Of a DNA stretch of 10,541 nucleotides, positions 234 through 10,004 are shown piece after piece. A program made the translations under genes and the position numbers. Within the stretch, counting starts at the first letter, position 1. Each line of letters begins with the position of its first letter. Origin of the DNA: Oscillospiraceae bacterium (GTDB lineage Bacteria > Bacillota_A > Clostridia > Oscillospirales > Oscillospiraceae); assembly GCA_017540945.1 (NCBI GenBank), contig JAFYAB010000045.1:1-10541 (forward strand), read 5' to 3'. The notes beneath the pieces are model-generated. The model was not told the DNA's origin and did no database searches. It saw only the letters and a list, made by a program, of their open reading frames with translations.

Positions 234-704
234 TTATTCAGAATCATCCACCGACATTACGTAGATCTGGCATGGATTCCATTCGTCCCAGAGTGTCGGA
301 AAGACCTCGAACTCCTTGAAGCCGAGGCTGAGATAGAATCGGTTTGTGGCGTCATATTCCGGGTACCGGCCCATCTGCACGGTTTTCACCTGGAGGAAGG
401 AATAGCCCCGCTCCCGAGCAATGCGTTTCGCCGCCTGGACCAGCGCTGTACCGACGCCCTGCCGGTGGTATTCCTTCAAAACGCCCATCACGGCCAGCTC
501 CAGGGTGTCCCTGCCCGTTTCCTTCAGGCAGAGAAAGCCATCCGGTTCTCCGCCCTCCGACGATACCAGCATGATCTCGTCGGCGCTCTCGCGGATATAG
601 TTCTCCCGCGCCTCCGGGATGCCGAACCACTCCGGCAGCGCCTCCAGAATCACCCGGGCGACCCGCTGCTTTTCCTGTCTGTCGTCAAGCATTTGTATCC
701 GCAT
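234..704 (-). CDS. GNAT family N-acetyltransferase
   Basis: A 156-residue single-domain GNAT acetyltransferase, expected to move an acetyl group from acetyl-CoA to an amine of unknown identity in the cytoplasm. The acetyl-CoA pyrophosphate loop is visible as QGVGTA (residues 82-87) after the beta-4 segment AVMGVLKEYH; the C-terminal part has the usual NRFYLSLGF helix-strand. A start six bases further upstream (TTG at 710) is possible, but the GAGG at 713-716 is 8 nt from the ATG at 704 and only 2 nt from the TTG, so I choose the ATG. It is the last gene of a four-gene operon, 21 nt after the DUF5655 gene, and is followed by a terminator. It closely resembles the GNAT at 4870-5331: both have LPEWFGIPE, QVKTV, YPEYD.TN.FY and LWD..NPCQ. 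The substrate cannot be read from the sequence. Confidence 0.9.
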   Translation of the reverse strand: MRIQMLDDRQEKQRVARVILEALPEWFGIPEARENYIRESADEIMLVSSEGGEPDGFLCLKETGRDTLELAVMGVLKEYHRQGVGTALVQAAKRIARERGYSFLQVKTVQMGRYPEYDATNRFYLSLGFKEFEVFPTLWDEWNPCQIYVMSVDDSE

Positions 705-725
705 ATCCAAAACCTCAAAGCTTCC

Positions 726-1100
726 TTAGATCCTGTTTCCGAATGCATAGGCCCGCCGGATCCATTCCAGCAGCTCGGCGTCCAGCTCCGAGGCACCGGC
801 CAGAACGATATGATGGGTCCAACGCCCGGGCTGCGCTTCGGTTTTCGCGGCGATGCGCGGGGAATCCAGCGGATCCGGCAGCCCCAGGGTCAGTACAAGA
901 TAATGGGCCGGCAGCAGCCGTTTCGGCAGCACCCGGAAGACCGACACGCAGGCGAAGACCCGCCGGTTTTTCAGGGAGATCTGCGTCTTATGGGCTATCG
1001 CCGTAAATGCCCCGAGCGCTTTGATCCGATCCAGCAGCGTCTCGTACAGCGCCAGCTCCTCCGGCTTCCCGTCAAAGAAAAACAGCTCGTCCATCGTCAT
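726..1100 (-). CDS. DUF5655-like protein
   Basis: A 124-residue protein resembling the DUF5655 family: an N-terminal helix with a 'FFDGKPEELALYETLLDRI' look, a central strand region (FTAIAHKTQISLKN, then RVFACVSVF), and a C-terminal 'GRWTHHIVL...LDAELLEWIRRAY' segment whose paired His and closing W-x-x-x-AY are typical of that family. No enzymatic activity is established for the family as far as I know. The start ATG at 1100 is preceded by a good AAGGGAG site near 1110-1117. It is third in the minus-strand operon, 20 nt after the DUF1905 gene. DUF5655, DUF1905 and DUF1801 proteins often occur together or fused, which supports a shared but unknown role. Family assignment is by recognition of pattern, not a search. 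Confidence 0.75.
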   Translation of the reverse strand: MTMDELFFFDGKPEELALYETLLDRIKALGAFTAIAHKTQISLKNRRVFACVSVFRVLPKRLLPAHYLVLTLGLPDPLDSPRIAAKTEAQPGRWTHHIVLAGASELDAELLEWIRRAYAFGNRI

Positions 1101-1120
1101 GGTTCTACGCTCCCTTTCCG

Positions 1121-1399
1121 TCAGTCCCGCGGCTCGATGATCACGTGGATCGCGTCGCCGTCATGCTTACCCAGGGCCGAGCGGATGGCCTTCGTGACGC
1201 CGATGAGATAGCAGACCGAGCCGTCCGGGTTCTTGACTCCCATGTTCACAATGCTGCCGTCGTAGCCGACACCGTCAAACTGGGCGTGGACCTTGACCCG
1301 GCCCCTGCCGAACACTGCCCGGATATCCCAGGGGAAGGCCACGTAGGCGCCGCCGTTCTCCGGGATCTCATGCAGGATCGCGTCGTATTCATATTTCAT
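1121..1399 (-). CDS. DUF1905 domain protein
   Basis: A 92-residue protein covering one whole DUF1905 domain. Visible hallmarks in order: a first beta strand (YEYDAILHEI), the 'YVAFPWDIRAVFGRGRVKVHAQFDG' segment (residues about 19-43) in which the P-[FW]-D-[IV]-R..FG pattern is diagnostic, a 'GSIVNMG' turn, and the C-terminal 'YLIGVTKAIRSALGKHDGDAIHVII' that closes the small beta barrel. The fold resembles a compact beta-barrel nucleic-acid or ligand binding shape, but function is not known. ATG at 1399 follows a strong GGGAGGG ribosome binding site. It lies 22 nt after the DUF1801 gene and 20 nt before the DUF5655 gene in the same operon. Confidence 0.85.
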   Translation of the reverse strand: MKYEYDAILHEIPENGGAYVAFPWDIRAVFGRGRVKVHAQFDGVGYDGSIVNMGVKNPDGSVCYLIGVTKAIRSALGKHDGDAIHVIIEPRD

Positions 1400-1421
1400 T
1401 TTGTTTCCCTCCCGGCGGCGC

Positions 1422-1838
1422 TCAGGCGTGGTTTCCGGTATCCCGGCACCAGGCGGCGATCTCGGCGATCAGTGCCAGGGGCAGCTCCCCGGAATACGGA
1501 ATCTGAATCGTGCCCTTGCTGTATTGGTACCCGCCCTCGTCCAGCTTATCCGCGAAATGGGCCACTGCCTCCGGGCCGGGGTACAGGCCGACGTGTTTTT
1601 TCGCCGCCGCGAAATGGAGGACGTTGCCGCCCTGCCAGTAGGTCGGCATGGACCAGGAGATCTTCTCCTTCGCCTCCGGCAGCTGCGCCAGGATGGTCTC
1701 CCGGACCTGCCGCAGCGGCTCCCGGAGGGCTTCGTCCTGGGCGTTGATATACTCGTCAATGCTTTCCGGGGCCTTCCCGCAGTCGTGCTGTTGGGTTTCG
1801 CCGCGGAAGGCGCGCCCGCAGTTCGGACAGGTCCACAT
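1422..1838 (-). CDS. DUF1801 (YdhG-like) protein with N-terminal zinc knuckle
   Basis: A 138-residue protein in two parts. Residues 1-20 hold C4-x2-C7 and H18-x-C20, a likely CCHC zinc-binding knuckle. Residues about 27-138 match the DUF1801/YdhG pattern: an N-terminal helix (SIDEYINAQDEALREPL), the helix 'VRETILAQLPEAKEKISWSMPTY' with the characteristic E.I.W.MP.Y, a strand 'GNVLHFAAAKKHVGLYPG' and the 'YSKGTIQIPYSGELPLALI' end. YdhG-type proteins have been linked to iron handling in Bacillus, but for this protein that is only a family hint. It is the first gene of the operon; ATG at 1838 has AAGGAG 7 nt upstream, and a sigma-A-like promoter lies about 45 nt further up. Confidence 0.88.
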   Translation of the reverse strand: MWTCPNCGRAFRGETQQHDCGKAPESIDEYINAQDEALREPLRQVRETILAQLPEAKEKISWSMPTYWQGGNVLHFAAAKKHVGLYPGPEAVAHFADKLDEGGYQYSKGTIQIPYSGELPLALIAEIAAWCRDTGNHA

Positions 1839-1882
1839 AGAATCGCTCCTTTGCTTCGAGTGTGTACAGCCTTCTGCTGTTT

Positions 1883-1911
1883 ATCATACTACAGGAGGCC
1901 GGATTTGTCTA
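1883..1911 (-). promoter_or_regulatory. Sigma-A-type promoter of the minus-strand operon
   Basis: On the minus strand, TAGACA (1911-1906) and TATGAT (1888-1883) are separated by exactly 17 bp. This matches TTGACA/TATAAT at five of six positions in each box. It sits about 45-70 bp upstream of the DUF1801 start codon, and no other good pair is visible nearby. Confidence 0.7.
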
Positions 1912-2133
1912 TATGGCAGATTTTCAATAATAGATTTCGAAATAGTACCCGCTGTGCGGCTGATTTTGAATATTTGATGTGAATCCTGTGAGAATAGTTT
2001 CCCTTATTTTTCCCTTAAACGGGGTGGTACTGGGTAACATCAGGGGGTAGCAGGGAACAGATAAACGGGCAATAAGGGAAAAAAATCAGCCCAAAAGGCA
2101 CGGTATAACACGGAAAAACAGCACACCGGGCAC
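1912..2133. other. Gene-free AT-rich stretch
   Basis: No convincing gene or RNA is visible on either strand. The minus-strand reading frame over 2040-2234 runs through the hairpin and repeat array and matches nothing I recognise. The stretch has scattered purine- and pyrimidine-rich runs (TTTCCCTTATTTTTCCCTT near 1998-2016, AAGGGAAAAAAA near 2072-2085), which might be short repeated binding words, but this is weak. Confidence 0.4.
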
Positions 2134-2156
2134 TTCGAATCCTTCTCCCGCTGCCA
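2134..2156 (+). other. tRNA 3'-end-like sequence, possible attachment-site scar
   Basis: The 23 bases look like the 3' end of a tRNA gene: a T-loop TTCGAAT, a stem-like CCTTC, an acceptor-like TCCCGCT and a final GCCA. The upstream bases (GGGCAC) do not pair with CCTTC, and no D-arm, anticodon arm or 5' acceptor strand is visible, so this is not a complete tRNA. Integrating elements that use tyrosine recombinases commonly leave a duplicated tRNA 3' end at their attachment site, and a terminator-like hairpin follows at once, as after a real tRNA. Reading it as an att scar is inference; chance resemblance is possible. Confidence 0.4.
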
Positions 2157-2157
2157 T

Positions 2158-2199
2158 GAAAAAAGCGTCTTTTGTCTACCGACAAAAGGCGCTTTTTTC
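2158..2199. terminator. Strong hairpin, bidirectional terminator-like
   Basis: Arms 2158-2176 and 2181-2199 form a 19-bp stem with one G-T wobble (at T2168) and a TACC loop. Each arm begins or ends with six A/T pairs flanking a GCGYCTTTTGTC core, so on either strand the stem ends in a T run. It could stop transcription from both sides. It follows the tRNA-3'-like scar directly and precedes the repeat array. Confidence 0.7.
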
Positions 2200-2200
2200 A

Positions 2201-2375
2201 ACGAAATCCGTCCTTGCGGACGGGTGAAATCCACCTGCGGCGGGCGAAATCGCTGCGCGGTGAAATTCCGCTTCGCGGGTGACGGACGGATTTCATTTCA
2301 CCCGAGGACAAAGTCCGAGGATTTCACCAACGTCGCAGACGTTGATTTCACCGTGAGCACAGCGAACGATTTCAC
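2201..2375. repeat. Array of GTGAAAT / ATTTCAC words separated by mini-hairpins
   Basis: The left half carries ACGAAAT (2201-2207), GTGAAAT (2224-2230), GCGAAAT (2244-2250) and GTGAAAT (2260-2266). The right half carries the reverse complement: ATTTCAT (2290-2296), then ATTTCAC at 2295-2301, 2321-2327, 2345-2351 and 2369-2375. The last three are exactly 24 nt apart. Between the words lie small hairpins with different sequences: CCGTCC/GGACGG with TTGC loop (2208-2223), CCGC/GCGG (2268-2278), GGAC/GTCC (2306-2316) and a perfect CAACGTC/GACGTTG with GCA loop (2328-2344). The spacers differ in sequence but most keep the ability to fold, and the words invert at the centre. GAAATCCGTCC (2203-2213) is also exactly complementary to 2284-2294, so the halves can pair over a distance. 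From memory, similar tracts accompany four-helix-bundle genes in gut Clostridia; this needs a search. Confidence 0.8.
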
Positions 2376-2377
2376 TG

Positions 2378-2406
2378 TTGAACATTCATTTACGATTTGT
2401 TATACT
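2378..2406 (+). promoter_or_regulatory. Sigma-A-type promoter of the four-helix-bundle gene
   Basis: TTGAAC (2378-2383) and TATACT (2401-2406) are 17 bp apart. The -35 box begins two bases after the last ATTTCAC word of the repeat array, so the array lies outside the transcript of the downstream gene. A GAGGTGAG ribosome binding site follows at 2413-2420. Confidence 0.7.
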
Positions 2407-2421
2407 GTTTTTGAGGTGAGT

Positions 2422-2775
2422 ATGATGGTAAAAGGAAAGCTTTCTGATCTGTCCATGGATTTCGCTGTCAGCGCTTTGAAACTTTGTGGCAGCATCAAGG
2501 GCCATTATTCCCTTGTCAATCAGCTGGAACGTTCCGCAACCAGTATCGGCGCAAATATCCGTGAAGCAAATTACGCGCACAGCAAACCGGATTTCATTGC
2601 AAAACTTCAAATTGCGCTGAAAGAATGTTATGAAACCGAATACTGGCTTGAATTGATTATAAAAGCTGAAATAGTCGGAGAAGACAGCGTTTCCGCATTA
2701 CTGCGCAATTGCGGGTCACTGCGCAGAATGCTTATTTCATCTATCAATATTGCAAAAACAAATATGAGGAGTTAA
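2422..2775 (+). CDS. Four-helix-bundle protein (23S rRNA intervening-sequence protein family)
   Basis: A 117-residue all-helical protein of the family first seen encoded in intervening sequences of 23S rRNA (related to the Avd accessory protein of diversity-generating retroelements). Key signatures: 'LVNQLERSATSIGANIREA' (about 31-49), with the Q-L-x-R-[SA]-x-x-S-I-x-x-N-I-x-E-[AG] pattern, and 'FIAKLQIALKECYETEYWLELI' (about 58-79), where the K..IA..E..E...WL pattern is diagnostic. The frame is open upstream to 2224 across the repeat array, but the promoter, the GAGGTGAG site and the ATG pair at 2422/2425 place the start here; either Met is possible. Members form pentameric barrels in known structures and may bind nucleic acid; the role of stand-alone copies is unknown. 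Base composition is AT-richer than the flanking operons, consistent with transfer. Confidence 0.88.
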   Translation: MMVKGKLSDLSMDFAVSALKLCGSIKGHYSLVNQLERSATSIGANIREANYAHSKPDFIAKLQIALKECYETEYWLELIIKAEIVGEDSVSALLRNCGSLRRMLISSINIAKTNMRS

Positions 2776-2812
2776 GAACATTTTTACTACCAGGGCAATA
2801 GAGGTTTCTTTA

Positions 2813-2841
2813 TTGTTTCATAATGTTGAGTATGGTATAAT
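2813..2841 (+). promoter_or_regulatory. Sigma-A-type promoter upstream of a decayed ORF
   Basis: TTGTTT (2813-2818) and a consensus TATAAT (2836-2841) are 17 bp apart. GTTGAG (2825-2830) and CTCAAC (2845-2850) form a 6-bp inverted repeat around the -10 box and could be an operator. GGAGG at 2856-2860 and an ATG at 2870 follow, so the expression signals of the broken reading frame remain intact. Confidence 0.65.
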
Positions 2842-2869
2842 CACCTCAACCAAACGGAGGGGAAAAAGC

Positions 2870-2964
2870 ATGACCTATATTCACATGAATGATAGAAGAA
2901 TATTAGATTTTTTGAACAGGTTATTCACAACAAAAGTAACATTCGTGCAATAGCTGCAGACCTT
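2870..2964 (+). pseudogene. Frameshifted N-terminal fragment, possibly IS30-type transposase HTH
   Basis: The ATG at 2870, 9 nt after GGAGG, opens a 27-codon frame that stops at 2951. Adding one T to the six-T run at 2908-2913 would restore a frame reading MTYIHMNDRRILDFFEQ then VIHNKSNIRAIAADL. That layout (short start, acidic helix, then [SI].IR.IA..L) resembles the N-terminal helix-turn-helix of IS30-type transposases, which usually continues with a GRSPSTISRE-like helix. That continuation is absent: after AADL the frame runs into sequence I do not recognise. So this is a remnant that is both shifted and truncated. The family name is tentative; it could be another HTH protein. Confidence 0.4.
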
Positions 2965-3300
2965 TTGACTTGGCTTGATCATAATGTGGAATACAGTAGA
3001 CTGAATGTCTTTTGCGCGGTCTTTCTATGGTTTGGTGTACTTTTACGCGCTCTTTCACAAGAAAAGAAGCTAAAATCCTCGGGTTTTGGCTCTTTTTTTG
3101 CTTTTCGGTGCTTATTGGCTATTTCATCAATTTTCCGCAGCGGTGGCATCTTCCTCTTCAACGTGCTGTTGGTTGCCATCGTCCCAACCCCTCGTTGAGT
3201 CGGTTTCTTCTCTTTTCTATCACGCCACAACCTGCCGGATCTTTCCATATAATAGCTATCCAAAGTTGAGAGGATACGCGTATACAGCTTAAATTATAGA
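2965..3300. other. Gene-free stretch with no recognisable content
   Basis: Several frames of 60-95 codons are open on both strands (for example minus strand 3263-2979 and plus strand 2965-3198), but none has a good ribosome binding site together with a recognisable domain. The plus-strand translations are Phe/Leu/Ser-rich because of local T-richness, not because of regular membrane segments. A 10-base palindrome ATACGCGTAT lies at 3274-3283, about 18 bp upstream of the next promoter. The stretch may be the eroded remainder of the mobile element whose start is at 2870. Confidence 0.4.
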
Positions 3301-3328
3301 TTGCAATTCCCATCAAATCCTGTATAAT
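3301..3328 (+). promoter_or_regulatory. Sigma-A-type promoter of the peroxiredoxin-led operon
   Basis: TTGCAA (3301-3306) and consensus TATAAT (3323-3328) are 16 bp apart. They are followed by an untranslated leader of about 70 nt and a strong AGGAGG (3395-3400) 7 nt from the ATG at 3408. The palindrome ATACGCGTAT at 3274-3283 just upstream might be a binding site, though no regulator is identifiable. Confidence 0.7.
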
Positions 3329-3407
3329 TATATTTAGGATGGTAGCTGGTTATGGGATAACTCTTTTCTAATACAATGAACCATAGCATGGAATAGGAGG
3401 ATTCGAT

Positions 3408-3863
3408 ATGTTAGCAATTGGAACCATAGCCCCGGAGTTTGAATTATTGGACCAGAACGGAGAGGCCCACCGCCTGGCGGATTACCGCGGACGGAGGGTG
3501 ATCCTGTATTTCTACCCAAAGGACATGACCGCGGGCTGTACGAAGCAGGCCTGCGCCTTCGGGGAGCTCTATCCGCAGTTCCGGGAGAAGGGGGCCGTGG
3601 TACTGGGCGTCAGCAAGGACAGCGTGGCCTCCCACAAGCGCTTTGAGGAGAAGTACGGCCTGCCCTTTACGCTGCTCTCCGACCCCGAGCGCAAGGTCAT
3701 CCAGGCCTACGACGTCTGGAAGGAGAAGATGAACTACGGCAAGGTCACCATGGGCGTGGTCCGCACCACCTATCTGATCGACGAAAACGGGATCATCATC
3801 CGCGCCTTCGACAAGGTCAAGGCCGCCGACAACCCCGCCCAAATGCTGGCCGAGCTGGGCTGA
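3408..3863 (+). CDS. bcp: Thiol peroxidase, Bcp/PrxQ-type peroxiredoxin
   Basis: A 151-residue cytoplasmic peroxiredoxin of the Bcp/PrxQ class, which reduces hydrogen peroxide and organic hydroperoxides using thioredoxin as electron source. The active-site loop is visible: P37-x3-T41-x2-C44 (peroxidatic Cys) in YPKDMTAGCT, and C49 five residues later, the position of the resolving Cys in the PrxQ type that forms an intramolecular disulphide. Further family marks are the N-terminal 'GTIAPEFELLDQNGE', 'VVLGVSKDSVASHKRFEEKYGLPF', 'LLSDP' and the late Arg in 'VVRTTYLIDENG'. Length is normal for the family. The usual Pro in TPGC is Ala here, a mild variation. It is the first gene after a good promoter and leads a plus-strand run with short gaps; the next gene starts 45 nt on. 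Confidence 0.95.
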   Translation: MLAIGTIAPEFELLDQNGEAHRLADYRGRRVILYFYPKDMTAGCTKQACAFGELYPQFREKGAVVLGVSKDSVASHKRFEEKYGLPFTLLSDPERKVIQAYDVWKEKMNYGKVTMGVVRTTYLIDENGIIIRAFDKVKAADNPAQMLAELG

Positions 3864-3908
3864 AAAGGACAAACCAAATGGACGGACAGTCAGAAGGAGA
3901 CAGGATCC

Positions 3909-4130
3909 ATGGAGCTGCATTGGGAAGAAGGATTTGAGATTCACGTCAGCGTGGAAGGCCATGAGGCCCGGATTTCTGCGAACGCCGCAGGGCTGCGCTC
4001 TTTGGCCAATCACCTCCTGGCCTTGGCTGAGGAGCAGCCAGGAAGTCATCTGCACCTGGATCCGTACAACAGCCTGGAGGAGGATTCCGCGCCGCTGCTG
4101 CTGGAGCGAATCAAGGAGAACGAAGCATGA
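3909..4130 (+). CDS. Small Imm32-like protein
   Basis: A 73-residue acidic protein that recalls the Imm32 family of predicted immunity proteins. The matching features are a strand pair 'FEIHVSVEGHEARISANAAGLRSLANHLLALAE' with the 'N..GL..LA..LL.LA' helix (residues about 25-41), then 'GSHLHLDPYNSLEEDSAPLLLERI', where H-[IL]-H-[LF]-D, S-L-E and S..L.[IL]E.. are the usual pattern. There is no toxin gene beside it, and in Clostridia such proteins are often found alone in operons of unrelated genes, so an immunity role is not supported here. ATG at 3909 follows AAGGAG by 9 nt. The gene overlaps the next by four bases (ATGA), which implies coupled translation. Confidence 0.6.
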   Translation: MELHWEEGFEIHVSVEGHEARISANAAGLRSLANHLLALAEEQPGSHLHLDPYNSLEEDSAPLLLERIKENEA

Positions 4131-4366
4131 AAAGCATCCTGATTGCCGATACGACCCGGGCGGAGCGGGAGCGGATCGTGGCGGAATCCGTCGGCAGCAT
4201 CGACGGCCTCTGCGACGGTTGCAGCCCCGGCCTGCTCAGAATGTACGACGACTACATCGAAGGCCGCAAAGAGCTGCGGGAGATCAACATGGAGTTCCGC
4301 GCCCGGTATATGTCCGGCGCGGCTGGCCCGGACAAGCCCGGCTGCGGCTGGATGGAGCAGCTGTGA
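4127..4366 (+). CDS. Small conserved-looking protein with CDGC motif
   Basis: A 79-residue cytoplasmic protein. N-terminal 'KSILIADTTRAERERIVAES' (2-21) is a short strand plus charged helix, followed by 'GLCDGCSPG' (C29, C32) and a second helical part 'MYDDYIEGRKELREINMEFRARYMSG' with a further Cys at 73. The Cys pair could bind a metal or act in redox, but nothing proves it. I recall small proteins of this look in gut Clostridia that databases sometimes label 'purine biosynthesis protein PurH'; it is far too short to be the bifunctional PurH enzyme, so that name should not be trusted. It overlaps the previous gene by ATGA, and the following GNAT starts one base after its stop codon, so the three genes are almost surely co-translated. 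Confidence 0.75.
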   Translation: MKSILIADTTRAERERIVAESVGSIDGLCDGCSPGLLRMYDDYIEGRKELREINMEFRARYMSGAAGPDKPGCGWMEQL

Positions 4367-4367
4367 A

Positions 4368-4856
4368 ATGCTGATCCGAACAGCGAGCGGCGAGGAAATG
4401 CTGGCCCTTTGGGGGTATCCGGATTTCAACGCCGCCTCCCCGACAGCACGGTTTTTCTATCAAAACATTGCTGCAGGCAACGCCGTGTTCTGGGCATTGG
4501 AGCACGAGGGGGCCATGATCGGCGAGCTGTACGCCTTTTTCGATCTGGAGGACAGGGCCTTCGCGGACGGGAAAAGCACCGCCTATCTCTGCGCGTTCCG
4601 CGTGAAAGAGGGCTTCCGCGGCCAGGGACTTGGCAGCAGGCTCATGGAAACGGCCCTCGGGGAGCTGAAAGCCCGAGGCTTCCGTCGGGCGTCCATCGGC
4701 GTCAGCGAGAGCGAGCCCCAGAACCTGCGGCTCTATCGCCGCTTCGGGTTTACGGAGAAGGGGAAGGACTGCCGCGCCGATCCCTGCGCCATGGACGAGC
4801 ATATGCGGCCCGTCGTCGATCCGGAGAGCTGGGTGCTGCTGTACAAAGCGCTGTAA
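4368..4856 (+). CDS. GNAT family N-acetyltransferase
   Basis: A 162-residue GNAT acetyltransferase. The acetyl-CoA binding loop is RGQGLG (R84 to G89) after the strand 'AYLCAFRVKEGF'; the C-terminal signature is 'EPQNLRLYRRFGFTEKGK' (about 116-133), the typical N..[AR]..LY...GF. The N-terminal 'MLIRTASGEEMLALWGY' and 'GAMIGELYAFFDLED' match the first strands and helix of the fold. The frame is open upstream to 4143, but translation from there would overlap the preceding gene out of frame. The ATG at 4368, one base after that gene's stop and 10 nt after GGAG (4354-4357), is the natural start. It is not close in sequence to the GNATs at 234 and 4870; the substrate is unknown. Confidence 0.9.
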   Translation: MLIRTASGEEMLALWGYPDFNAASPTARFFYQNIAAGNAVFWALEHEGAMIGELYAFFDLEDRAFADGKSTAYLCAFRVKEGFRGQGLGSRLMETALGELKARGFRRASIGVSESEPQNLRLYRRFGFTEKGKDCRADPCAMDEHMRPVVDPESWVLLYKAL

Positions 4857-4869
4857 AGAGAGGTGCCGT

Positions 4870-5331
4870 ATGATCGAGCGAATCACAGACAAGGATCGGA
4901 AGGAGCATATCGCGCGGCTTATCCTGCTGGCCCTGCCCGAATGGTTCGGTATCCCGGAGAGCACGCGGGCCTATATCGAAGCCAGCCGGGAGCTGCCCTT
5001 TTGGGCCGCGTTCGAGGATGGAAATGCCGTCGGGTTTTTGGCCCTGAAGGGGACCGGGCCAAAGACCGTGGAGCTCCACGTCATGGGGGTGCTGCCGGAA
5101 TATCACCGGCGCGGGATCGGCGCCGGTCTGTGGGAGGCGGCAAAAGCATACGCCAAGGCACAGGGATACCTGTACGCCCAGGTGAAGACCGTGGCGAGCG
5201 GCCATTATCCGGAATACGACCGGACCAACGCGTTTTACCGTGCGATGGGATTCGAAGCGCTGGAATGCTTTCCGATCCTGTGGGACGCCCGGAATCCCTG
5301 TCAGGTCTATGTGCAATACCTTGGAGGCTGA
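4870..5331 (+). CDS. GNAT family N-acetyltransferase, paralogue of the GNAT at 234-704
   Basis: A 153-residue single-domain GNAT. The acetyl-CoA loop is RGIGAG (R81 to G86) after 'VELHVMGVLPEYHR'; the C-terminal part reads 'YPEYDRTNAFYRAMGF'. By eye it shares more than half of its residues with the minus-strand GNAT at 234-704, including LPEWFGIPE near the N-terminus and the FP.LWD..NPCQ.YV end, so the two arose by duplication or were acquired twice. ATG at 4870 follows GAGAGGTG. It starts 13 nt after the previous GNAT and its last codons contain the ribosome binding site of the phosphatase gene that follows. Substrate unknown; the long conserved N-terminal motif suggests both copies use the same kind of acceptor. 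Confidence 0.92.
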   Translation: MIERITDKDRKEHIARLILLALPEWFGIPESTRAYIEASRELPFWAAFEDGNAVGFLALKGTGPKTVELHVMGVLPEYHRRGIGAGLWEAAKAYAKAQGYLYAQVKTVASGHYPEYDRTNAFYRAMGFEALECFPILWDARNPCQVYVQYLGG

Positions 5332-8032: not shown

Positions 8033-8113
8033 TAACTGAATACAGGCGCAGAACAGACAGGAGGGGTTTCCCTCCCGGTTTGGTGCGCCATTCCAGTAAC
8101 TTTCGATGGTAAG

Positions 8114-8160
8114 AACCGCAGGATGCAGCCATACGGGAGCTGCTTCGCTGCGGGTTTTTT
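8114..8160 (+). terminator. Rho-independent terminator in the leader
   Basis: CCGCAG (8116-8121) pairs with CTGCGG (8148-8153), and inside it GCAGC (8125-8129) pairs with GCTGC (8139-8143). Six Ts follow at 8155-8160. It lies 30 nt upstream of the start codon of the fusion gene and downstream of the strong promoter at 7930, with no other good promoter between, so transcripts must read through it to express that gene. Confidence 0.75.
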
Positions 8161-8189
8161 ATACCCTTTTATCATGGAGGAAAATAAAA

Positions 8190-9929
8190 ATGAATATTAC
8201 ATTGAGACCCGTTGATAAAAACAACCGCAAGGCCGTTCTGGCCCTCTCCGTCCGGGAGGACCAGCCCTTCGTGGCGTCCAATAAAACGTCTCTGCGCCAG
8301 GCCGACGAGGCTAACGCGGAGCAGCCCGGCGTGGCCCGGCCCTTCGCCATCTACACCGGCGACAAGCTTGTGGGCTTCTGCATGTTCGCCTTTGACCCGG
8401 AGGAGGAAGACGAGGACGACCGCTACTGGCTCTGGCGCTTCATGATCGACAAGGACGAGCAGGGCAAGGGCTACGGCCAGGCCGCCCTGCAGGAGATCAT
8501 AAAGTATTTCAAGGACAACGGGGCGGACCGGCTCTATCTGTCTACCGAGCCGGAGAACGAGCGGGGCCTGCACGTCTACCACAAGGCGGGCTTCCGGGAG
8601 ACCGGCATCATCGGCGACGACGAGGCCGTGCTGATGCGGATGCTGAAGGGCCCCAACAAGCTTGTTAAGAATTGCTATGGCGTCGATGTGGACAAACGTC
8701 TGCGGATCCACGGAAAGAAGGGTTATGGCGTCAGCATCGCGGTCCAGGACGGAGAGGAGGATTTCCTCACGTACTGCGCCGGCAGCGGCCGCTTCGGGCA
8801 GGATTTCCCGGTGAACCCGGACATGCTGTTCCAGGCGGGCTCCGTATCGAAACCCATGTTCGCCCTGACCCTGCTGCGCTACGTGGACAAGGGCCTCATC
8901 GACCTGGACGCGGACATCTCCGGCATCGTGCCGGAATTCGTAAAGAAGGGCTCGATGACCTTTTCTGCCCTGCTCAGCCACACGGCGGGCTACAACGTGC
9001 ATGGCTTCCCCGGCTACCGGGCGGATCACGAACCGCTCTCCCTGGAGGACGTGCTGAACGGAAAGGGCGTCACGCCGAAGCTCCGCCGGATCCGTCCTTA
9101 CGGCAAGCAGTTTATCTACTCCGGCGGCGGCGTCACCCTGGCGCAGCTCGCCTTTGAGCGCATCACCGGCACGACCCTGCGGGAGGCCTTCCAAACCGAG
9201 GTCGCCGAGCCTCTGGGCCTGAAACACACCGGCTATTTCCAACCCCTGGACGAGGAACTGATCGAAAATGCGGCCTTCGGCGGCAGGCTCGGGATCAAAG
9301 AGGATCCCGCCCACGGTTATCACTATTATCCCGAGCACGCGGCGGCGGGCCTTTGGACCACGCCGACGGAGCTGGTCAAGCTCGGACTGGCCCTTTCCAA
9401 GAGCTACCGGGAAGGCGGCTTCCTGAAGAAAGAGACGGCTCGGCGCATGCTGACGCCGGTCATGGACAACTACGGTCTGGGCATTCACAGCTTCCGGGGC
9501 GACGTCGGCTATCATGACGGATGGAACGAGGGCTTCCTGACAACCTGGATATTCTCCCTGCGGGAGGATCTGTGCGCAGCCGTGATGTTCAACCGGACCA
9601 CGGAGGAGCTGGATTGGGAACAGTCGAAGATCGCCCTAGAGATCTTCCAGACCGTAGAGGAGGACGCTGCCGACGCGCCGGGCAAACGGAGTCTGAAAGC
9701 CCTCTGCGGAAAATACGAGCATCCCGAAAACGCTGATTTCTGCGTGGACGAGGTGTTCCTGCAGGATGGAAAGCTGTATGCGAGGTTCCTTGACGCGGAG
9801 GACGGCGCGTTTACCAGTCAGCTCTATCCCATCGGGAAGAAGACCTTCGGCCGCAAGGGCGGCTTCGCCAAAATCATCTTCGGCGAGGACTGCCTGACCA
9901 TCGACGGAACCACCTGCAAGAAGCTTTGA
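8190..9929 (+). CDS. GNAT acetyltransferase fused to a beta-lactamase-family serine hydrolase
   Basis: A 579-residue fusion. Residues 1-152 are a GNAT of the spermidine/spermine-acetyltransferase look: 'YWLWRFMIDKDEQGKGYG' with the acetyl-CoA loop QGKGYG (91-96) and 'ERGLHVYHKAGFRETG'. Residues about 170-490 are a class-C-beta-lactamase-like serine hydrolase with S218-V-S-K221 (nucleophile and base, SxxK), Y310-S-G in place of the usual Y-[SA]-N, and H442-D-G (HxG in place of KTG). Residues 500-579 look like the small C-terminal beta domain often found in these hydrolases. No signal peptide: the enzyme is cytoplasmic. ATG at 8190 with GGAGG 9 nt upstream marks the start at the GNAT; the open frame back to 8106 crosses the terminator. 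Such hydrolases include esterases, amidases and D-amino peptidases; the substrate is unknown. Confidence 0.93.
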   Translation: MNITLRPVDKNNRKAVLALSVREDQPFVASNKTSLRQADEANAEQPGVARPFAIYTGDKLVGFCMFAFDPEEEDEDDRYWLWRFMIDKDEQGKGYGQAALQEIIKYFKDNGADRLYLSTEPENERGLHVYHKAGFRETGIIGDDEAVLMRMLKGPNKLVKNCYGVDVDKRLRIHGKKGYGVSIAVQDGEEDFLTYCAGSGRFGQDFPVNPDMLFQAGSVSKPMFALTLLRYVDKGLIDLDADISGIVPEFVKKGSMTFSALLSHTAGYNVHGFPGYRADHEPLSLEDVLNGKGVTPKLRRIRPYGKQFIYSGGGVTLAQLAFERITGTTLREAFQTEVAEPLGLKHTGYFQPLDEELIENAAFGGRLGIKEDPAHGYHYYPEHAAAGLWTTPTELVKLGLALSKSYREGGFLKKETARRMLTPVMDNYGLGIHSFRGDVGYHDGWNEGFLTTWIFSLREDLCAAVMFNRTTEELDWEQSKIALEIFQTVEEDAADAPGKRSLKALCGKYEHPENADFCVDEVFLQDGKLYARFLDAEDGAFTSQLYPIGKKTFGRKGGFAKIIFGEDCLTIDGTTCKKL

Positions 9930-9933
9930 GCCC

Positions 9934-10004
9934 GTAGGGGCCGATGCCCACATCGGCCCTGTTCACGATTCGCAACGCGGGCCGATGTGGGCATCGGCCC
10001 CTAC
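9934..10004. repeat. Perfect 26-bp inverted repeat (palindromic intergenic element)
   Basis: Arms 9934-9959 and 9979-10004 are exact reverse complements around a 19-nt centre. Each arm is itself nearly palindromic (GGCCGATG CCCA CATCGGCC), so DNA or RNA could form either one long stem or two short ones. The arm ends are GTAGGGGCC. Just after the right arm CCCCTACAA occurs twice in a row (9998-10006, 10007-10015), perhaps a trace of insertion or slippage. It fills nearly the whole gap between the two hydrolase genes and may also act as a terminator-like stem, although no T run follows. Confidence 0.9.

Follow-up and report, generated by a model that had tools for sequence, protein, structure and literature searches.

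REPINs are inverted pairs of REP sequences. In REP/RAYT systems (REPtrons), short palindromic repeats that carry a conserved short word at a hairpin are dispersed, and they co-evolve with the protein of a cognate gene that is mostly single-copy (PMC8266576). A second group close to the locus described here is that of the 23S rRNA intervening sequences, which have been proposed to be mobile and whose S23p/IVP proteins belong to Pfam family PF05635. In the Coxiella intervening sequence three tandem heptamers GACAGAT (two in some strains) lie just upstream of the S23p ORF, and the function of PF05635 proteins is given in the same account as not known (PMC4990558). Avd of diversity-generating retroelements is described as related in family and structure (PMC10053308), and both the intervening sequences and Avd are RNA-linked systems with relatives of these four-helix-bundle (FHB) proteins (PMC4990558, PMC10053308). 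Elsewhere, the 23S rRNA IVP is named among CRISPR-linked candidates (PMC10910872) and FHB genes are listed as strain-specific (PMC8700078). The Rfam motif Gut-1 (RF01706) stems from a 2010 paper whose entry for it gives a likely non-coding RNA, lists it for the human gut only and names no gene link (PMC2864571). No link between FHB proteins and word arrays was found in searches of open-licence PMC papers.

We analysed a 10,541-nt stretch of Oscillospiraceae DNA (the window), in which nine GTGAAAT/ATTTCAC-like words lie within 180 nt upstream of an FHB gene. A first-order Markov simulation gave a mean of 0.74 words and a maximum of six in 20,000 draws, which bears out the array of four forward and five reverse words claimed in a preliminary description made from the sequence alone. 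The forward words (pattern [CT]GAAAT, counted on the + strand) start at 2202, 2225, 2245 and 2261 (span 2202..2266), with mini-hairpin spacers between them; those at 2202 and 2245 read CGAAAT and the other two TGAAAT. The five reverse ATTTCA words (pattern ATTTC[AG], also on the + strand) start at 2290, 2295, 2321, 2345 and 2369 (span 2290..2374). The first two of these overlap by one base, and the last three are spaced by exactly 24 nt; this period had already been pointed out, as had the perfect stems at 2208–2223 and 2328–2344, which are present in the sequence.

The forward half-array (2199..2271, + strand) matches Gut-1 in Rfam with 63.1 bits, above the gathering cut-off of 50, and the reverse half-array (2290..2377, − strand) is a second, inverted Gut-1-like motif that scores 37.4 bits (E 2e-5), which does not reach the cut-off. 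The array is made up of two copies of this orphan motif in inverted orientation, the reverse one matching weakly. Directly before the array stands a terminator-like left terminal hairpin (2157..2200, + strand) with 20-nt arms that are 95% complementary and a 4-nt loop, preceded in turn by a tRNA-like 3′ end fragment (2134..2156, + strand), read by eye from the T-loop TTCGAATCC to ...GCCA; ARAGORN found no tRNA in the window. The array centre GGACGGATTTCATT (2284..2297, + strand) is the complement of 2200–2213 (14 nt, 93%) and could be an alternative partner for this first hairpin arm. The preliminary description had seen neither the Gut-1 identity nor the long hairpin, the 14-nt complement and the tRNA-like 3′ end. 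A sigma-70-like promoter, TTGAAC-17-TATACT (2378..2406, + strand), was predicted by a scan that is weak, with three promoter-like sites as against 1.2 expected in shuffles; its −35-like TTGAAC begins two bases past the last 7-mer word, just as had been noted, and TATACT ends at 2406. The next gene after the array is the FHB gene (2422..2775, + strand), which encodes 117 amino acids with profile matches to TIGR02436 (95.7 bits) and PF05635 (84.6 bits; cut-off 33.8) and has 2RLD as its nearest solved structure (profile 108 bits). Near the other end of the window, positions 9934–10004 hold a REP/REPIN-like inverted pair GTAGGGGCCGATGCCCACATCGGCCC...GGGCCGATGTGGGCATCGGCCCCTAC, with similar sequence at locus L198 of genome G020.

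Relatives of the window protein came from a protein search, in which at least 8,000 candidates were scored and all those listed pass E 1e-3, and from a scan of species genomes with at least 553 confirmed relatives. The closest set is the best 80 of these at least 553. Its 80 loci, the one contig with an FHB relative from a scan of viral contigs and the window together hold 84 FHB genes, two of which are second genes of another lineage (L014 and L021). One order recurs in these related Clostridia, namely tRNA 3′ CCA, hairpin, forward words, reverse words and FHB gene. An intact tRNA on the same strand precedes 56 of the 81 FHB genes with at least 330 nt of upstream DNA; these tRNAs, of 12 isotypes, end 150–320 nt upstream, just before the left hairpin. 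In front of at least nine of the other 25 genes, the window's included, a tRNA 3′ fragment with CCA at its end can be made out by eye, and it is the position of 2134–2156 in the window that holds the intact tRNA or the fragment in related loci. Two or more TGAAAT words together with two or more ATTTCA words occur upstream of 73 of the 80 FHB genes in the closest set with a full-length protein and enough upstream DNA. The seven misses are L007, L057 and L062 (one and four words), L026 (one and two), L069 (two and none), L047 (none and one) and the second gene of L021, which has another word. At L012, L040, L043, L051 and L070 the intact tRNA is followed by 132–217 nt, then by an exact 16–20 nt repeat of the tRNA 3′ end and then by the array, which indicates that another small insert has split the tRNA from the array. 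These inserts could belong to a further small element that also makes use of the 3′ ends of tRNAs. The array centre at L074 is interrupted by another MITE-like insert, which is about 200 nt long and has the inverted ends GGTGACAGAAGGCTAA...TTAGCCTTTTGTCACC.

Upstream word scores were drawn from 189 unique FHB genes with DNA. The best inverted 6-mer within 420 nt upstream scores at least 6 in 113 of 184 FHB genes, compared with 2.9% of simulated sequences. Read by eye, the words differ by FHB lineage and include GTGAAAT, ATGATAT, ATGATG, TGAAG, ATGAATT, GTTATAT, GCTAAAT, GCGATAT and others. On a tree of 123 FHB proteins, made by a quick method from few columns and with 53 of its 120 inner branches open, the nine word classes of 60 automatically labelled genes require nine changes (the minimum is eight), as against 27–32 in 300 shuffles. 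Eight changes (17–24 when shuffled) are needed for the 32 genes and eight classes that are left when the GTGAAAT class is removed, and 11 changes (38–45 when shuffled) for the 74 genes and 11 classes obtained with 14 additional hand labels; the 49 tree rows with no word label were excluded from all change counts. Several genomes (G015, G042, G053, G077, G103, G198 and G262) combine several FHB lineages with several words, thus indicating that the word follows the protein and not the species or host lineage. The pairing of words and proteins, which have diversified together, is well supported; the agreement between words and tree would also be expected if array and gene were inherited together as a single locus.

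The array-associated FHBs form a branch separate from the IVP-type proteins and have common residues at G38, A39, Y46, D52-F53, K62-E63 and W70 (alignment numbering). Most of these residues are replaced in the 18 IVP-type proteins (L203–L220), all 18 of which have G62-S63. No catalytic or nuclease motif was recognised in the FHB alignment. An HEPN-like RNase was considered and rejected, since the type-A R-x5-H motif is not conserved (of 83 proteins, 57% have R and 40% have H at position 42).

FHB relatives also occur on plasmids (25 records, mostly from Nostoc and other cyanobacteria, but also from Treponema, Bernardetia and others) and in phages (two records), and eight of the 25 plasmid places and both phage places were examined. 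All eight of these plasmid genes, from cyanobacteria, Treponema and Bernardetia, are flanked by tandem words on one side and by the reverse complement of these words on the other, as with (AATTCGT)n and (ACGAATT)n at Nostoc C052 or (TTAGTGA)n and TCACTAA in Bernardetia, and both phage genes have stacked arrays as in the window. By a strict count, in which a word occurs at least twice upstream and its reverse complement at least twice downstream, brackets surround eight of the ten plasmid and phage FHB genes (swapped-flank mean 1.28), 24 of 80 other FHB genes (7.75), 6 of 18 IVP-type genes (0.94) and 12 of 295 control ORFs. Bracketing in type A, the window's type, was found in 11 of 82 genes and is not above the swapped control mean of 9.9; this type is therefore stacked, with both halves upstream of the gene, and not bracketed. 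Six or more word copies are present at 73 of 82 type A, 56 of 80 other, 7 of 18 IVP-type and all ten plasmid or phage genes and at 15 of 94 control ORFs, although such simple copy counts separate FHB genes from control ORFs less sharply than the bracket count does. At L400, on a Nostoc plasmid, cas2 and cas1 stand on either side of an FHB gene and its word bracket.

In 20 genomes that were chosen through FHB loci, each genome has 3–45 Gut-1 matches at E 1e-3; matches above the gathering cut-off are present in 18 of the 20, and the Gut-1 matches outnumber the FHB matches (1–5 per genome). The numbers overstate the arrays and mix families, because array halves are counted separately and the model also detects arrays built from different words (GTGATAT in G020 and G014, for example). 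One of 14 control genomes (E. coli) gave a match, which was below the cut-off. Most Gut-1-type matches have no FHB gene alongside. Among 41 genomes around G015, 13 have an FHB match, 16 a Gut-1 match and ten have both; FHB is present in 10 of 16 Gut-1-positive and 3 of 25 Gut-1-negative genomes (Fisher P 0.0014), where absences of either are soft since completeness of the draft genomes is not given. All seven genomes with ten or more Gut-1 matches have an FHB match (partial in G022), the six Gut-1-positive genomes with no detected FHB have 1–4 matches each, and 3 of the 13 FHB genomes have no Gut-1 match. A census of word clusters (at least three same-strand words each) in the fetched loci gave 345 clusters. 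Of the 273 left halves, 65 stand behind a tRNA, 33 behind a CDS end and 175 behind neither; the corresponding numbers are 2, 26 and 22 for the 50 single halves and 0, 7 and 15 for the 22 right halves.

The preliminary description had proposed that array and protein form one unit. The words upstream of 73 of 80 FHB genes and the tracking of the FHB tree by word class agree with this part of the proposal, whereas the Gut-1-type matches far exceed the FHB genes in the 20 genomes compared, and the unit is therefore better described as few protein genes with many dispersed arrays. We consider it probable that the array belongs to a dispersed family of palindromic, non-autonomous repeats, of which it is one copy, and that the adjoining FHB gene encodes the cognate protein of this family, which would promote its spread. 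The best reading is a REP/RAYT-like pair with a PF05635 bundle instead of a transposase. REP/RAYT systems likewise combine many dispersed repeats with few cognate genes that have co-evolved with them, but two of their defining features differ: RAYT is a tyrosine (Y1 HUH) transposase whereas the protein here is a PF05635/TIGR02436 four-helix bundle, and the foot of the REP hairpin is GTAG whereas the words here are others. The roughly eight words per array, the frequent location at tRNA 3′ ends and the coupled cargo genes are further differences. A REP/RAYT-like character had been suggested at the outset, together with searches of related genomes and spacer comparisons as possible checks, and tests of this kind support it.

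Loci L001 and L009 have in common a 745-nt unit with 97.6% identity in unrelated flanks, which runs from CCA at its left edge to about 125 nt beyond the FHB stop. Array copies in G011 are 96–98% identical over 175–287 nt, other pairs in this genome being 70–93% identical, and six GTGATAT half-arrays in G020 are near-identical by eye, with the same flank at L197 and L200. Orthologous sites that are occupied in one species and unoccupied in another were found beside two genes, named mutS and lepA by eye. All 11 of the 11 genus members matched at the mutS-like locus. A GTGATAT array is present in L301 and absent from L345 (90% identical), and L351 carries a complete array that has a hairpin at each end; in L346 and L347 a similar centre is surrounded by other, simple words, and six members have no array by eye. 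The lepA-like locus was matched in 24 of 26: L313 has an array and L320 and L322 (84–85%) have none, words of the GTGAATAGTGAA type are found in L319 and L321 and other tandem words in L334 and L342, which come from one genome, and the remaining matches have no array by eye or a different upstream gene. Since the occupied and unoccupied sites differ between species and not between strains, gain and loss are indistinguishable. Simple tandem words of another kind thus stand round a similar centre at the orthologous intergenic sites L346, L347, L319 and L321, as if arrays at one site could switch word family. When 80 genomes were searched by flank for an unoccupied tRNA-Gly site among relatives of G018, only four weak matches were obtained apart from G018 itself.

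Pairing within the spacers is kept while the stems change. Perfect stems of at least 5 are found in 44% of 175 de-duplicated spacers compared with 1.9% when shuffled (maximum 6.3%), in line with the conserved words and varying but foldable spacers of the preliminary description. In the spacers given by seven word patterns, most loops on the ATTTCA strand have a closing C-G pair, both triloops (175 of 205; cGNAg in 82) and tetraloops (115 of 145; cGNNAg in 79). Such C-G-closed loops are stable in single-stranded DNA, and the folded form may be single-stranded DNA that arises at the fork or through fold-back copying. An excess of G-T over A-C mismatches on one strand (27 versus 5 before de-duplication; afterwards 18 versus 6 in array-assigned spacers and 22 versus 17 in all) is not robust and is kept as a suggestive signal only. 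Long-range pairing of the centre shows a modest excess (31% versus 13% in swapped controls). In 10 of the 59 clusters at CDS ends, which comprise left and single halves and of which 28 have any hairpin, the left hairpin consists of the host gene's own 3′ end and an inverted copy of it, as against 5 of 1147 control ORF ends. Five of the ten are clear (L276, L391, L312, L134 and L270; P 5e-5 for these alone) and five are doubtful because the ORF may be spurious (L135, L184, L051, L310 and L146); such hairpins are also found below the threshold in L380 and L382 and by eye in L319 and L321 at the lepA-like locus. An inverted copy of the target end at the left hairpin suggests that fold-back copying could occur at insertion.

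Arrays are frequently located immediately downstream of a same-strand tRNA gene, which would also suit a different explanation, in which Gut-1 is an RNA regulator made by tRNA read-through or from a local promoter and bound by FHB, the dispersal reflects old recombination and FHB moves nothing. Rfam and the 2010 paper do list Gut-1 as a likely non-coding RNA (PMC2864571), and FHB relatives are tied to the RNA-linked systems named above. We nevertheless regard this explanation as unlikely, given that some copies are one-half only or lie behind ordinary genes, that a terminator-like hairpin stands before the array, that recent dispersal is visible and that the ATTTCA-strand tetraloops have no marked GNRA preference (45 of the 79 cGNNAg loops). 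Moreover, the reverse half is an inverted copy, so that only one half could be Gut-1 in any one transcript.

An ORF lies within 250 nt downstream of FHB in 66 of 79 genes of the closest set with enough downstream DNA, although the first start codon was taken and some of these cargo ORFs are surely spurious. The start is at −20 to +19 of the FHB stop in 44 cases and exactly at −4 (ATGA, once GTGA) in 22 of the 66, an overlap that is seen in 7 of 66 other FHB genes and 1 of 18 IVP-type genes; the window FHB gene has no coupled cargo. Cargo varies between loci. Pfam was run on 20 chosen of the 46 coupled cargo proteins, three of which had no match above the cut-off; GNAT was found three times, HAD twice, and NUDIX, MazG, methyltransferase, SfsA, cytidine deaminase, ASCH, pyrophosphatase, nucleotidyltransferase, WapI, DUF4279, DUF4288 and DUF6678 once each. 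Among 88 cargo proteins there are 13 similar pairs at E 1e-6, seven of which differ in word label (in three of the seven one label is missing). The cargo of L015 and L246 is 59% identical, with the words GTGAAAT and GCTAAAT, respectively, and that of L104 and L287 is 82% identical with FHBs at 43%, the FHB of L104 being truncated. Tandem units are present in L014, L021 and L059. A conserved linker, ACTTTTGCTTACTTTTACCTCGATTCTGCTCC..., often stands right after the cargo stop and before the next hairpin or unit; it was seen at 13 distinct places (L013, L014, L037, L054, L059, L060, L111 and others) and is not general. Several GNAT-like and other small accessory genes surround the locus in the window (234–5331 and 8106–9929, by eye), and their classes also occur as FHB-coupled cargo at other loci.

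The change of the ORF after FHB from locus to locus and the tracking of the FHB tree by the words both argue against passive MITE-like arrays that were moved by an unrelated transposase or recombinase, with FHB as a passenger or as a host factor that tames them. This explanation, which would be in keeping with the absence of a recognised nuclease motif in the FHB alignment and with the other small inserts, with 16–20 nt repeats, at tRNA 3′ ends of the same loci, appears improbable to us. It is very unlikely that the array is instead an operator for FHB and coupled cargo in an autoregulatory or defence-like expression cassette and no mobile repeat, as the abutting promoter and the 4-nt overlap of cargo start and FHB stop in 22 of the 66 genes that are followed by an ORF could suggest, because many Gut-1-type matches per genome stand against only 1–5 FHB genes and arrays occur behind ordinary genes.

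For the preferred reading, a dispersed repeat with a cognate FHB gene, a mechanism is proposed where the repeat would follow a plan of terminal hairpin, about four forward words, centre and about four reverse words. FHB, probably a pentameric ring as reported for one family member, would recognise the lineage-specific word beside the mini-hairpins and would promote copying or insertion of arrays, and new arrays would come to lie immediately after tRNA genes and at the ends of other genes. We infer that the FHB protein binds the word and that FHB itself, and not another enzyme, drives the dispersal or copying. The FHB branches that go with different repeat words point to an unrecognised two-part, mobile-like genetic element.

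The other described systems resemble this element in part. The 23S rRNA intervening sequences have proteins of the same Pfam family, and the Coxiella heptamers before the S23p ORF can be read, by analogy, as the same habit as the FHB word arrays; in contrast, the window array is not in a 23S rRNA helix (an Rfam gathering scan of the whole window gave only Gut-1), and the array FHBs are on their own branch with their own conserved residues. Avd is related in family and structure, although neither a reverse transcriptase nor a repeat pair was noticed by eye among the window ORFs. Integron cassettes likewise combine a folded site with a variable small cargo gene, and tandem units occur here as well, but here FHB is within the unit or the array stands alone. 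The forward half-array belongs to Gut-1 by the family cut-off; unlike the arrays described here, Gut-1 is listed as an orphan RNA, and the inverted pairing, FHB and the tRNA link are absent from its description in that source (PMC2864571).

A broader reading is possible, although we hold it to be doubtful. Non-rRNA PF05635 proteins would be the protein half of bacteria-wide mobile elements with ends made of inverted arrays of an approximately 7-nt word specific to the lineage, the FHB ring would read this word and drive fold-back (self-primed) copying, and the 23S intervening sequences would be one specialised branch. Fold-back copying would make ever-changing perfect hairpins, would leave the inverted end of the target gene at the left border and would bring coupled cargo genes to tRNA 3′ ends.

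FHB lineages that are tied to their own words provide a testable partner both for the function-less PF05635 family and for Gut-1, an orphan since 2010. If FHB disperses the arrays, this would be a repeat-dispersal system that lacks any known transposase fold, which would account for many heptamer-type repeats of bacterial genomes and would carry accessory genes to tRNA genes.
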